Source: a bacterium (GTDB lineage Bacteria > Bacillota_I > Bacilli_A > RF39 > UBA660). Taken from it: a DNA stretch of 39,176 nt. A model generated the notes under the pieces. It saw only the letters and a program-made list of their open reading frames with translations, was not told where the DNA came from and ran no database searches. Positions within the stretch are counted from its first letter, which is position 1. Each line of letters begins with the position of its first letter. The translations under genes and the position numbers were made by a program. The stretch lies in contig JAUNMG010000012.1 in assembly GCA_030531905.1 (NCBI GenBank), forward strand, positions 1-39,176. The letters are read 5' to 3'. Positions 12,261 through 17,478 of this stretch are shown here, one piece after another.

Positions 12261-12289
12261 TTGTTAAATTTTACTTTTTGGTTTATAAT
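12261..12289 (+). promoter_or_regulatory. Promoter of the T-box / hisS operon
   Basis: TTGTTA (12261-12266), 17-bp spacer, TATAAT (12284-12289). Transcription would start near 12296, a few bases before stem I of the T-box. Confidence 0.8.
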
Positions 12290-12303
12290 TAGTATATCTT
12301 CAT

Positions 12304-12483
12304 GTAAGAGGAGTAAATTGTTTTAATCTTTTAGAGATAATGTGGTTGGTGAAAACGTTAATTTTAAAATAATTGAAGACACTTACTATAAAGTGAAGCG
12401 GATGACTCTGATAAAGGTTTTAATAAGAATAAATTAAGGTGGCACCACGAAGAGATTCGTCCTTATGCGGTGTGACCTTTTTT
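12304..12483 (+). promoter_or_regulatory. T-box riboswitch leader of the hisS-aspS operon, with Asp-type specifier
   Basis: The antiterminator T-box sequence AAGGTGGCACCACG is at 12436-12449. Stem I can be drawn: base helix GTAAG (12304-12308) / CTTAC (12382-12386); specifier loop with 5' AGTA (12312-12315) and 3' GAAGACA (12375-12381); 11-bp helix 12316-12326 / 12364-12374 (one G.T); then AGAGA and a distal GGTGAAA loop (12348-12354). Counting from the base helix the specifier is GAC (Asp), which overlaps CAC (His). The bulge UGGC would pair with an acceptor end GCCA. Bacterial tRNA-Asp has discriminator G73 and tRNA-His has C73, so both readings favour tRNA-Asp. Confidence 0.88.
12436..12483 (+). 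terminator. Regulatory terminator of the T-box
   Basis: AAGGTGGCACC (12436-12446) pairs with GGTGTGACCTT (12469-12479) with a single mismatch, enclosing the hairpin ACGAA-GAGA-TTCGT, and is followed by Ts to 12483. Its 5' arm contains the T-box bulge sequence, so it competes with the tRNA-stabilised antiterminator. Confidence 0.8.
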
Positions 12484-12504: not shown

Positions 12505-13893
12505 ATGATAACAAAACCAAAGGGATGTAAAGATATTTATGGAAATGGTGCTAAAACTTGGAAATATATAGAACAAGTTATAGATTCTGTAATGGAAAAA
12601 TATAATTATGGATATATTCGTACACCTATTTTTGAATCTAGTGAATTATATCATAGAGGAGTAGGAGAAACTTCTGACATTGTAACAAAAGAGACATATG
12701 ATTTTACTGATCGTGGTGAAAGAAAGATGACTTTAAGACCAGAAGGAACTGCTGGAGTTGTGAGAAGTTATATTGAAAATAAGATGTATGGAGATATGAA
12801 TCCAGTTAAACTTTATTATAATGGAACAATGTATCGTTATGAACGTCCTCAAGCAGGACGTGAAAGAGAACTTACTCAGTTTGGTGCTGAAGCAATTGGT
12901 TCTGATGATCCAATGATGGATGCAGAAATAATTTCACTTGCTTATAATATTTATAAGTTATTAGGATTAAAAGATATTACAGTACACATTAATTCATTAG
13001 GAGATACTGAGTCTCGTAATAACTATCGTGATGCTTTAGTAAGATATTTTTCACCATATATTAATGATTTCTGTGATGACTGTAAAATGCGTATTGCTAA
13101 AAATCCATTGAGAATTCTTGATTGTAAAGTTGATAGTGAAAACGAAGTCTTTAAAAAAGCTCCAACTACTATTGATTATTTAAATGAAGAAAGTAAGAGT
13201 CGTTTTGAAAAAGTTAAAGAATACTTAGACTTACTTCAAATTCCATATGTAGTTGATCCTAAGATTGTTAGAGGGCTTGACTATTATAATCATACTGTTT
13301 TTGAATTTGTTATTGATGTTAAGGAACTTGGTGGTCAAAATGTAATAGGAGCAGGTGGAAGATATAATGGTTTATGTGAACAATTAGGTGGACCTTCAAC
13401 TCCTGGTATTGGTTTTGCATCTGGACTTGACAGAATTTTAGTAGCAATGAAATATCAAGAGGTAAAAGTAAATGTTAAAGAGCAAATTGATTTATTCTTG
13501 ATGTATGTAAATGATGAAGAAAAAAATTATGCTCTATACCTTGCCCAAGAATTACGTCTTAATGGATTTAATGTTGATACAGAGTATACTTCACGTAGCT
13601 TGAAAGCTCAATTTAAACAAGCAGATCGTCTAAAATCTAAATTTACAGCAGTTTTGAATAGTGATGATTTAGATAATAATGAAATTAAAATTAAAAACAA
13701 TGAAACAAAAGAAGAAGAAATAATATCAATTGATGCATTAGTTTTCTATTTAGATGAAAAATTAACTACAGATGAAGATCTTTATAACTATGATTTTACA
13801 TCAGATGATGAGTGTCACTGTCATGATGATGAATGTTCTTGTTTTGATGATTGCTCATGTGATAGCGAGTGTCATTGTAATCATGAGGATTAG
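12505..13893 (+). CDS. hisS: Histidyl-tRNA synthetase with an acidic Cys/His-rich C-terminal tail
   Basis: Charges tRNA-His. GGGAGG (12492-12497) fixes the ATG at 12505; an in-frame reading from 12439 would begin inside the T-box. The 462 residues contain class II motif 2 (MYRYERPQAGRERELTQFG), the His-specific motif RGLDYYNHTVFEF near 256, motif 3 (GIGFASGLDRIL) near 315, and an anticodon-binding domain to about 425. The usual length is about 420-430. The final 29 residues (434-462) are Asp/Glu-rich with four CxC units (CHC, CSC, CSC, CHC) and extra His. The tail looks like a metal-binding or redox appendage; its role is not known to me. It heads the hisS-orf-aspS-proS-murC cluster. Confidence 0.93.
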   Translation: MITKPKGCKDIYGNGAKTWKYIEQVIDSVMEKYNYGYIRTPIFESSELYHRGVGETSDIVTKETYDFTDRGERKMTLRPEGTAGVVRSYIENKMYGDMNPVKLYYNGTMYRYERPQAGRERELTQFGAEAIGSDDPMMDAEIISLAYNIYKLLGLKDITVHINSLGDTESRNNYRDALVRYFSPYINDFCDDCKMRIAKNPLRILDCKVDSENEVFKKAPTTIDYLNEESKSRFEKVKEYLDLLQIPYVVDPKIVRGLDYYNHTVFEFVIDVKELGGQNVIGAGGRYNGLCEQLGGPSTPGIGFASGLDRILVAMKYQEVKVNVKEQIDLFLMYVNDEEKNYALYLAQELRLNGFNVDTEYTSRSLKAQFKQADRLKSKFTAVLNSDDLDNNEIKIKNNETKEEEIISIDALVFYLDEKLTTDEDLYNYDFTSDDECHCHDDECSCFDDCSCDSECHCNHED

Positions 13894-13896
13894 AAT

Positions 13897-14298
13897 ATGA
13901 AGTTTAGTGATGAAGAGAAAGCTTTCGCAAGAAAAATAGTTGATGCTTGTAGTTATTCTTTTTTAAGTATAGAAGATATAAGTAATAATTTCAAAGACCT
14001 AGGTTTTTTAGTAAATAAAAATAAAATGATAGGTTATACTTCATACATGGAATATAATAAAGAAAAGAATAGTGGGATTATTTCATATAGTATAGAAGAA
14101 AATTTAAAAAGACAACAAGAAATTTTGCTTCTTAATTTTTCATATTTTATTACTAGTAGTGATAAAAATATGAAAATCTATTATAAAGATATTCCAAGAA
14201 AAAATGCTATGAAGAAATTTTCAAAATTACTTGTAGATACTTCGGCAGATAAGGAATTTGGGGTATATGATAATAAACAAGGAGGTATAAGAAAATAA
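13897..14298 (+). CDS. Unknown protein between hisS and aspS
   Basis: 133 residues, soluble, Lys-rich, no signal peptide or membrane segment. It starts 4 bases after hisS, and its TAA shares one base with the aspS ATG (TAATG), so it is translationally coupled in the operon. The N-terminus (FSDEEKAFARKIVDACSYSF) and the centre (EENLKRQQEILLLNFSYFI) look helical. I do not recognise a family. Its location suggests a function tied to, or simply carried with, the synthetase genes; base composition is like its neighbours. Confidence 0.6.
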   Translation: MKFSDEEKAFARKIVDACSYSFLSIEDISNNFKDLGFLVNKNKMIGYTSYMEYNKEKNSGIISYSIEENLKRQQEILLLNFSYFITSSDKNMKIYYKDIPRKNAMKKFSKLLVDTSADKEFGVYDNKQGGIRK

Positions 14299-16043
14299 TG
14301 AAAAAAATTTATAATACAGATTTAAGTCTAAATGATATTGAAAAAAATGTTACTTTATATGGATGGGTCCAAAAGAAACGTGATTTAGGAGGAGTTTTAT
14401 TTATTGACTTAAGAGATCGTAGTGGTATTATTCAATTAGTTATTAATGATGATAATGAATTTTTTGATACTGCAACAACTCTAAAAAATGAAAGTGTAAT
14501 TAAGGTTACTGGTTTAGTACGTGAAAGAGAAAATAAAAATGATAATTTAAAAACAGGGGCAATTGAAGTTGTAATATCTAGTTTAGAAGTATTAAATCAA
14601 AGTGTTGATCTTCCTTTTGAAATAGTTGATGATACAACAGCACTTGAAGATACAAAACTAAAATATCGTTATTTAGATTTAAGAAGAAATCCAGTTAAAA
14701 ATAGATTAATCGCAAGACATAAAATTGTTACTTCTATTAGAGAATATTTGAATAATTTAAATTTTATAGAAATAGAAACACCTATTTTATGTAAATCAAC
14801 TCCAGAAGGAGCAAGGGACTACCTAGTACCTAGTAGAGTAAATAAAAATAAGTTTTATGCTTTACCACAATCTCCTCAAATATTAAAACAATTACTTATG
14901 GTAGGTGGAATGGAACGTTACTATCAAGTAGCTCGTTGTTTTAGAGATGAGGACTTACGTGCTGACCGTCAACCAGAATTTACTCAAATCGATATGGAAA
15001 TGAGTTTTATAGATGAAGAAGATATTGAAACAATTGTTGAAGGTTTAATGAAAAAAGTTTTCAAAGAAATTAAAGGAATAGATATAAAAACACCATTCCT
15101 TAGAATGAAATATGATGAGGCAATGGCTCGCTTTGGTTCAGATAAGCCAGATATGAGATTTGGAATGGAACTTCATGATGTAACTAAATTATTTGAAAAA
15201 AGCGAATTTAAAGTATTTAGTAGTGCAATAGAAAATAATGGTATTATTTCAACTATCAAAGTAGAAAATGAAGCTAGTAACTTCTCACGTAAGAAAATTG
15301 ATGAATTAACTGAATTTGTTAAACAATACAAAGCTAAGGGACTTGCTTTTATAAAATTAGAAAATAATGAATTTACGGGTGGTATTAGTAAATTTTTAAC
15401 TGATCAAGAAAAAGCTAGTTTGAAAACTGAATTAGATCTTCATGATAATGATTTAGTATTCTTTGTATCAGATAAAAAAGAAATTGTTTATGCCTCTTTA
15501 GGTTCTCTTAGATGTTTACTTGGAAAAGAATTAGGTTTAATTAAAGAAGATGATTATAAATTCTTATGGGTAGTAGATTTTCCAGTGTTTGAGTGGAGTG
15601 ATGAAGAAAATCGTTTTATGGCATGTCATCATCCATTTACAATGCCTAAAGATGAGGATGTTGATAAATTGTTAACTGATAAAGCAAATTGTCATGCAAA
15701 AGCATATGATATCGTACTTAATGGATATGAAGTAGGTGGAGGAAGTATTAGAATTCATAAAGAAGAAATTCAAGAAAAAATGTTTGAAGCTTTAGGATTT
15801 ACAAAAGAAGAAGCTTATGATAAATTTGGATTCTTAATTGATGCTTTTAAATATGGAACACCACCACATGGAGGACTTGCTATTGGACTTGAACGTTTAG
15901 TTATGATTTTAACAGGAACAACTAATATTCGTGATGTTATAGCATTTCCAAAAACTACATCTGCATCTGATTTAATGATGAGTTGTCCATCATTCGTTTC
16001 AGAAAAACAATTAGAAGAATTATATATAGATACAAAGGAGTAA
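14298..16043 (+). CDS. aspS: Aspartyl-tRNA synthetase
   Basis: Charges tRNA-Asp. The 581-residue length is the usual bacterial AspRS size. It has an N-terminal OB-fold anticodon domain (about 1-105, with YGWVQKKRDLGGVLFIDLRDR), class II motif 2 in CFRDEDLRADRQPEFTQID near 215, a bacterial GAD insertion (about 285-405), and motif 3 GLAIGLERLVMILTG near 535 followed by NIRDVIAFPK. Translation is coupled to the upstream orf by the TAATG overlap. The Asp-type T-box at the operon start is consistent with this gene being a main regulated target. Confidence 0.95.
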   Translation: MKKIYNTDLSLNDIEKNVTLYGWVQKKRDLGGVLFIDLRDRSGIIQLVINDDNEFFDTATTLKNESVIKVTGLVRERENKNDNLKTGAIEVVISSLEVLNQSVDLPFEIVDDTTALEDTKLKYRYLDLRRNPVKNRLIARHKIVTSIREYLNNLNFIEIETPILCKSTPEGARDYLVPSRVNKNKFYALPQSPQILKQLLMVGGMERYYQVARCFRDEDLRADRQPEFTQIDMEMSFIDEEDIETIVEGLMKKVFKEIKGIDIKTPFLRMKYDEAMARFGSDKPDMRFGMELHDVTKLFEKSEFKVFSSAIENNGIISTIKVENEASNFSRKKIDELTEFVKQYKAKGLAFIKLENNEFTGGISKFLTDQEKASLKTELDLHDNDLVFFVSDKKEIVYASLGSLRCLLGKELGLIKEDDYKFLWVVDFPVFEWSDEENRFMACHHPFTMPKDEDVDKLLTDKANCHAKAYDIVLNGYEVGGGSIRIHKEEIQEKMFEALGFTKEEAYDKFGFLIDAFKYGTPPHGGLAIGLERLVMILTGTTNIRDVIAFPKTTSASDLMMSCPSFVSEKQLEELYIDTKE

Positions 16044-16047
16044 TTAT

Positions 16048-17478
16048 ATGGATAAAAAAAATAATGCGATTACACCTCGTAATGAGGACTTTGCTAAATG
16101 GTATACAGATGTTGTTCGTGCTGCACACTTAGCTGATTATTCATCTGTAAAGGGATGTATTGTAATAGAACCAAATGGTTATGCTATCTGGGAGAAAATG
16201 CAAGAAATACTTGATAAAGAATTTAAAAGGCTTGGTCATGTAAATTGTCAAATGCCGCTACTTATTCCTGAAGATTTACTAAAAAAAGAAGGTGAATTAG
16301 TAGAAGGTTTCGCTCCTGAGGTTGCTTGGGTAACAAAAGGTGGAGAAAAAGAGTTAGAAGAAAGACTTGCTATTCGTCCAACTAGTGAAACTTTATTTTG
16401 TGACTATTATGCAACACATGTTAAATCTTATCGTGATCTTCCAAAATTATATAACCAGTGGTGTAATGTCTTAAGATGGGAAAAGGAGACTAGACCATTC
16501 TTAAGAAGTCGTGAATTCTTATGGCAAGAAGGTCACACTATTCATGCAAGCCGTGAAGAAGCAGAACGCGAAACAGACCAAATGATGGGTGTATATCACT
16601 CTTTCCATAATAATATTTTAGCAATTCCTTCAATTCGTGGGGTAAAAACTGAAAAAGAAAAATTTTCCGGTGCTGAATACACATTAACTAATGAGGCTTT
16701 GATGTATAATGGTGTAGCTTTACAAGCTGGAACTTCTCATTATTTTGGACAAAAGTTTTCTAAAGCTTATAATGTTACTTTTTCAAATAAAGATAATGAG
16801 TTAGAATATGCTTATCAAACATCATGGGGAACAACAACTAGAATGATTGGTGGTTTAATTATGGTACATAGTGATGATTATGGATTAGTTCTTCCGCCAA
16901 GAATTGCACCAAGACAAGTTGTTATTATTCCAATTGGTGAAGATGAAGAAGTTTTATCTTTAGCAAGCAAATATAAAGATGAATTACTAAAAAATGATAT
17001 TACTGCTTATATAGATGATTCTAAAAAATCTCCAGGATTTAAGTTTGCTGAAGCTGAAGTTAATGGTATTCCTGTTAGAATTGAATTAGGTAAAAGAGAT
17101 TTAGATAATGGAATTATTACAGTCGCAAGACGTGATACTAGAGAAAAATTAACTACTACTAGAGATGTAGAAATTGTTTCATATATTAAAAATTTATTAG
17201 AAACAATTCAAAATGATATGTATAATCGAGCAAAAACTCGTCGTGATAATTTAACATTTGAAGCTCATAATTTAGAAGAAATGGAAAAAATTCTGAATAC
17301 TCAACCAGGATTTATTCATGCTATGTGGTGTGGAGATAAGGAATGTGAAGAAAAAATCAAAGAAATTCGTGGTTGTAAATCAAGATGTATCTTACCTGAT
17401 GCCGAAAAAATTGATGATGTTTGTGTATGTTGTGGCAAAAAAGCTAAACATCATGTAGTCTGGGGAATTCAGTATTAA
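16048..17478 (+). CDS. proS: Prolyl-tRNA synthetase, archaeal/eukaryal type
   Basis: Charges tRNA-Pro. The 476-residue form lacks the INS editing domain found in the roughly 570-residue bacterial type. Class II motif 2 (YNQWCNVLRWEKETRPFLRSREF) is near 135, preceded by AIRPTSETLFCDYYA near 110. The C-terminus carries the zinc-binding extra domain of this type, with Cys in MWCGDKECEEKI, CKSRC and VCVCCGKKAKHH, and ends with a terminal Tyr. Ribosome binding site AAAGGAG lies just after the aspS stop (4-base gap). Confidence 0.95.
   Translation: MDKKNNAITPRNEDFAKWYTDVVRAAHLADYSSVKGCIVIEPNGYAIWEKMQEILDKEFKRLGHVNCQMPLLIPEDLLKKEGELVEGFAPEVAWVTKGGEKELEERLAIRPTSETLFCDYYATHVKSYRDLPKLYNQWCNVLRWEKETRPFLRSREFLWQEGHTIHASREEAERETDQMMGVYHSFHNNILAIPSIRGVKTEKEKFSGAEYTLTNEALMYNGVALQAGTSHYFGQKFSKAYNVTFSNKDNELEYAYQTSWGTTTRMIGGLIMVHSDDYGLVLPPRIAPRQVVIIPIGEDEEVLSLASKYKDELLKNDITAYIDDSKKSPGFKFAEAEVNGIPVRIELGKRDLDNGIITVARRDTREKLTTTRDVEIVSYIKNLLETIQNDMYNRAKTRRDNLTFEAHNLEEMEKILNTQPGFIHAMWCGDKECEEKIKEIRGCKSRCILPDAEKIDDVCVCCGKKAKHHVVWGIQY

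Follow-up and report, generated by a model that had tools for sequence, protein, structure and literature searches.

The T-box leader and its operon

On the forward strand of the window, by which we mean the whole stretch of 39,176 nucleotides that was analyzed, a T-box leader is followed by four genes in the order hisS-orf-aspS-proS, with gene names assigned by NCBIfam: histidine--tRNA ligase (hisS, 12505..13893; TIGR00442, 482 bits), a 133-aa ORF to which the NCBIfam search assigned no family (13897..14298), aspartate--tRNA ligase (aspS, 14298..16043; TIGR00459, 812 bits), and proline--tRNA ligase (proS, 16048..17478). Neighboring genes are separated by a few bases or overlap, and aspS lies two genes downstream in the series that begins with hisS, as an initial annotation of this DNA had it. 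Because proS starts only 4 nt behind aspS, it would probably share the same transcript, and prolyl-tRNA synthetase would therefore probably also fall under the control of what we interpret below as an Asp T-box. As a separate observation, the C-terminal tail of the window's HisRS (DDECHCHDDECSCFDDCSCDSECHCNHED, encoded at 13760-13893) is rich in Cys, His, Asp, and Glu and may possibly bind metal; low-complexity tails like it, 15-59 aa in length, are present in many relatives.

The leader is matched by the T-box covariance model RF00230 at 12297-12467 on the forward strand, over the whole model (1-219), with 74.1 bits and an E value of 1.7e-16. This score is below the curated Rfam gathering threshold for the family (93 bits), so that a scan at default threshold misses the leader. 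Immediately upstream, the sequence TTGTTA-17 nt-TATAAT (12261..12289, forward strand) resembles a sigma-70-type promoter purely by consensus match (10 of 12 positions), and transcription from it would be predicted to start at approximately the first base of the T-box.

The base helix of Stem I is formed by GTAAG (12304..12308) and CTTAC (12382..12386), and the corresponding helix shows compensatory changes in relatives. Alignment to the RF00230 consensus places AGUA (12312..12315) on the 5' side of the specifier (loop E) internal loop, and GGUUGGUG (12344..12351) at the distal Stem I loop motif, which contacts the tRNA elbow in canonical T-boxes. Directly before the 3' strand of the base helix lies the specifier segment GAA-GAC-A (12375..12381), made up of GAA at 12375-12377, the Asp specifier GAC at 12378-12380, and A12381; the initial annotation had located the specifier correctly in assigning GAC to this position. 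It was equally right that a His codon would need a base of the helix: read from the sequence, the CAC register occupies 12380-12382, and C12382, the last base of any His CAC, pairs with G12308.

Further downstream, the consensus alignment and the sequence define an antiterminator (12435..12465) consisting of UAAGG 12435-12439 paired with CCUUA 12461-12465 and ACGAA 12447-12451 paired with UUCGU 12456-12460, with a 7-nt bulge, UGGCACC, starting at 12440. Its UGGC (TGGC in the DNA; 12440..12443) is complementary to GCCA, and thus to a tRNA with discriminator G73. A competing terminator hairpin with a T-run spans about 12436..12483 (fold -18.7 kcal/mol, z -3.6), and this hairpin is absent from the list produced by a simple terminator scan. 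The leader thus has the UGGN bulge within an antiterminator competing with a terminator by which T-boxes are recognized. It shares Stem I with an internal specifier loop, the distal elbow motif, the UGGN bulge, and the terminator with class I transcriptional T-boxes (RF00230; the B. subtilis tyrS type), from which it does not differ fundamentally.

The sole tRNA-His of the genome (anticodon GTG) has G-1, C73, and an encoded CCA, and its discriminator is therefore not the G that the initial annotation had named as counterevidence. No tRNA-Asp was found among the 23 tRNAs of the assembly, which is 92% complete; the G73 to which we compare the bulge comes from the tRNA-Asp of three congeners (G003, G004, and G005). 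Across the class, G73 is present in 18 of 18 distinct tRNA-Asp sequences, those of the congeners included, and C73 in 27 of 28 distinct tRNA-His sequences, as the initial annotation had expected for each tRNA. The bulge UGGC therefore fits tRNA-Asp and not tRNA-His, and the window's leader combines an Asp codon in the canonical GAA-GAC-A frame with the bulge that matches the discriminator of its congeners' tRNA-Asp. Genome G032 encodes a further tRNA-His (GTG; L119:1470-1544), which is atypical in having G73 and not C73.

Specifier and bulge among related leaders

We compared the hisS loci of about 110 genomes from the window's class, 66 of which (the window and 65 relatives) have a T-box before hisS. 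Specifiers were located by eye and the strings then checked by script; an automatic base-helix finder chose wrong helices in about half of the leaders, and two leaders containing two GACs each (L190 and L204) were counted as GACAC. All 66 leaders have GAC as their specifier, so that the codon is kept across the relatives, and the two bases that follow it are AC in 52, AU in 5 (giving CAU), and another combination without a His codon in 9. The bulge reads UGGC in 39 leaders and UGGU in 27, with no instance of UGGG or UGGA; the search for joint changes of specifier and bulge that the initial annotation had proposed thus yielded only combinations that fit G73, which supports tRNA-Asp as the likely main ligand. 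Wherever a T-boxed hisS locus has enough 3' sequence, aspS lies downstream (65/65), and a T-box precedes hisS in 65 of 101 loci with aspS downstream versus none of the nine in which the search downstream turned up no aspS (Fisher p 0.001, calculated over genomes that are not independent of one another). The base helix shows compensatory changes, such as TGGGA/TCCCA in L062 and GTTTGA/TCAAAC in L068. Furthermore, the first base after the specifier A covaries with its partner in that helix (L062, L068, and L140), which is the behavior of a helix position and not of a codon base.

Other T-boxes of the same class serve as controls for both signals. Those before asnS, gatA, and asnB in the same genomes (gene names from translated ORFs) read AAC-A-C. 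Because Asn T-boxes also have A-C after the codon, the AC that follows GAC is generic T-box grammar; we accordingly rejected its conservation as proof of dual reading. GACAC would then arise from GAC plus a generic AC without any His function, and the overlapping CAC would mostly reflect T-box grammar. A T-box before aspS alone in genome G020 (L035) has GAC-A-U and UGGU. In five genomes, genuine His T-boxes precede hisZ; they have the specifier segment GAA-CAC-A and a UGGA bulge, a signature that the window's leader does not share. The initial annotation's statement that tRNA-His would need UGGG is not borne out by these five leaders; the discriminator argument works instead by contrast of signatures, and not by complementarity to C73. 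The UGGA of the hisZ leaders (L234 and L253-L256; also L246, L248, and L232) is neither a Watson-Crick nor a wobble match to the C73 of tRNA-His, and UGGN is hence no predictor of tRNA-His leaders by simple complementarity. TBDB leaves discriminator matching aside when it comes to His T-boxes, since the tRNA-His discriminator can pair internally (PMC7778990). Matches of the pattern GAACACAYYYNGGAG at L251, L252, and L257-L259 were dropped as non-T-box sites.

Outside the class, GAC together with UGGC or UGGU occurs in named genomes of Paenibacillus, Exiguobacterium, Enterococcus, lactobacilli, Fictibacillus, and Gottfriedia, and in Paenibacillus and Exiguobacterium the segment is often GACTT, GACCT, GACAU, or GACCC, mostly leaving a non-His codon in the overlapping frame. 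Most Bacillaceae hisS-aspS leaders instead have GAA(T/A)GAACAC with UGGC or UGGU (L271, L274, L279-L285, L288, L289, L292, and L295), where GAAC-AC gives AAC in the frame set by the helix and CAC if that frame slips. As these homologous leaders have AACAC and not GAC, Asp specificity is not universal. Three Planococcaceae hisS-aspS leaders (L286, L305, and L307) combine AACAC with UGGA, the bulge of genuine His T-boxes; UGGG matches in Bhargavaea (L309 and L316) lacked T-box context and were dropped. The specificity of hisS-aspS T-boxes seems to have changed between lineages by way of the GACAC/AACAC overlap.

Probable aspartate sensing and its alternatives

In our best reading, the window's leader is very probably a T-box that senses tRNA-Asp, because GAC is found in 66 of 66 class leaders, the bulge is only ever UGGC or UGGU, the T-box is confined to loci with aspS downstream, and the minimal relatives described below keep only GAC. 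The leader would act as a class I, transcription-terminating T-box in which the anticodon GUC of uncharged tRNA-Asp pairs with the specifier GAC in Stem I (12378-12380) and the tRNA 3' end GCCA pairs with the bulge UGGC (12440-12443). Such docking would hold the antiterminator in place and allow RNA polymerase to read into hisS-orf-aspS-proS; charged Asp-tRNA would be unable to dock, and the terminator would form. Under this scheme, hisS and proS, if cotranscribed with aspS, would be carried along by the charging of aspartate tRNA.

This idea is not new. GACAC is described as the characteristic specifier-loop sequence of hisS-aspS T-boxes (PMC5313534), and that paper credits Gutierrez-Preciado et al. 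2009 with the suggestion that it interacts mainly with tRNA-Asp. The published leaders have the operon, the GACAC of the specifier loop, and the proposed preference for tRNA-Asp in common with the window. The window differs from them in belonging to an uncultured, small-genome lineage of Bacilli, in having an additional ORF that separates aspS from hisS, with proS following, and in that GAC could be tested here against lineages that have lost CAC. The Asp-sensing design is thus already proposed in the literature and the window's leader is ordinary in kind, with its relatives showing the design more clearly; what the comparison adds is an answer, within one large uncultured lineage, as to what the GACAC leaders of hisS-aspS operons sense: Asp, His, or the two together. 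A T-box of Clostridium acetobutylicum, the subject of work by Saad et al. in 2013, reportedly carries two codons, either tRNA inducing, with a different codon pair. That system resembles the window in placing overlapping codons in one specifier loop before a tRNA-charging operon but involves another codon pair and other genes, and in the window's lineage one of the two codons is not maintained in relatives.

A dual sensor of this type, in which GACAC lets either tRNA-Asp (on GAC) or tRNA-His (on CAC, opening the first base-helix pair) induce the operon, would account for the presence of both hisS and aspS and for the CAC that is intact in the window and in 52 of 66 class leaders, and dual His/Asp sensing is a suggestion cited in PMC4342826. 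However, CAC requires the paired C12382, Asn T-boxes, too, normally have AC behind the codon, and the two overlapping codons are not maintained together, CAC being gone in 9 of the 66 leaders and changed to CAU in 5 more. In addition, the UGGC of the window differs from the UGGA that marks true His T-boxes, and the relatives with a minimal Stem I are mostly without CAC. We consider dual sensing unlikely, and the room for it that the initial annotation saw in GACAC is kept here at low weight; a minor His reading alongside the Asp reading is possible, since GACAC with an intact CAC is kept in so many leaders.

Exclusive sensing of tRNA-His in a shifted register, which is the usual annotation of hisS leaders, would agree with hisS being the adjoining gene, with the name histidine T-box given to the S. 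aureus hisS-aspS leader (PMC7927825), and with the AACAC and His-type UGGA of the Planococcaceae leaders. The invariance of GAC, the UGGC or UGGU bulge, the dependence on aspS, and the different signature of true His T-boxes in the same class make this reading highly improbable. Less credible still is a decayed or non-functional T-box, as might be supposed from a score of 74 bits where the threshold is 93: no functional element has been lost, and both the congeners and many genomes of the family retain these elements, with helix changes that compensate each other. The proposal of the initial annotation that hisS is under Asp control is therefore the one that the class comparison supports.

Relatives with a minimal Stem I

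The hisS leaders of one family (G095, G122, G155, G315, G322, and G357), and of a genus within the window's family (G015 plus seven relatives), lack a long Stem I. In its place stands a hairpin of about 15-19 nt with the specifier in its loop, as in GAAG-CUGACAA-CUUC, AAAU-CUGACAA-AUUU, UGAG-CUGACAA-CUCA, and GGAA-A-GUGACGA-C-UUCC (loci L340 and L343-L347 in the G095 family and L083 and L358-L364 in the G015 genus). Further loci with such a hairpin, lying before hisS-aspS or aspS alone, are L261, L411, L414, L399, L402-L404, and L406. All five pairs of the hairpin show changes on both sides, with 84% of cells paired versus 60% in shuffles, although the sequences were hand-chosen and aligned around the hairpin, so that the 84% leans toward it; the covariation score is 0.62 versus 0.20 in shuffles, and slid versions score far lower. 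A model built from these leaders brought up further examples: four genomes of another genus have such a hairpin in front of aspS alone, and two more genomes of the window's family have one before hisS. Strong terminators lie 3' of the mini-leaders in two of two tested.

Every one of these loops has a U directly before the codon, like U33 of a tRNA. The codon is GAC in all of them except that of L363, and most are without CAC; the retention of GAC by such minimal sensors supports Asp sensing of the hisS-aspS operon in this lineage. We think it reasonably likely that a mini-Stem-I form exists in at least two separate hisS-aspS lineages and, in front of an aspS that stands alone, in a third genus; that its loop (CUGACAA and variants) imitates an anticodon loop (Y/G32-U33-GAC-R37-A38) and binds tRNA-Asp through a loop-loop (anticodon-anticodon) kiss, with a transcription terminator still under its control; and that the window's leader shows this sensor with a large Stem I. 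To our knowledge, these leaders, if functional, are the smallest transcriptional T-boxes, and they would then offer a natural minimal anticodon sensor of wider use. This variant, although it lies outside the window, is unexpected and is a newer point than the window's own leader.

Transcriptional T-boxes are said generally to need a long Stem I (PMC7583486), and our search of the literature found no report of a mini-Stem-I form in Bacilli, which is weak evidence of absence. The class III T-box with a short Stem I (Nocardia farcinica ileS; PMC10482949) is like the mini relatives in having its specifier in an apical hairpin loop and in having no elbow motif. Class III T-boxes are, however, described as mostly translational, with a loop of 5-6 nt (penta- or hexanucleotide; PMC10482949), whereas the mini relatives have terminators, a loop of about 7 nt (CUGACAA), and an Asp codon. 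In the exceptional L363, which lies upstream of hisS, the loop is CUAACAA, with AAC for GAC, a possible switch to tRNA-Asn.
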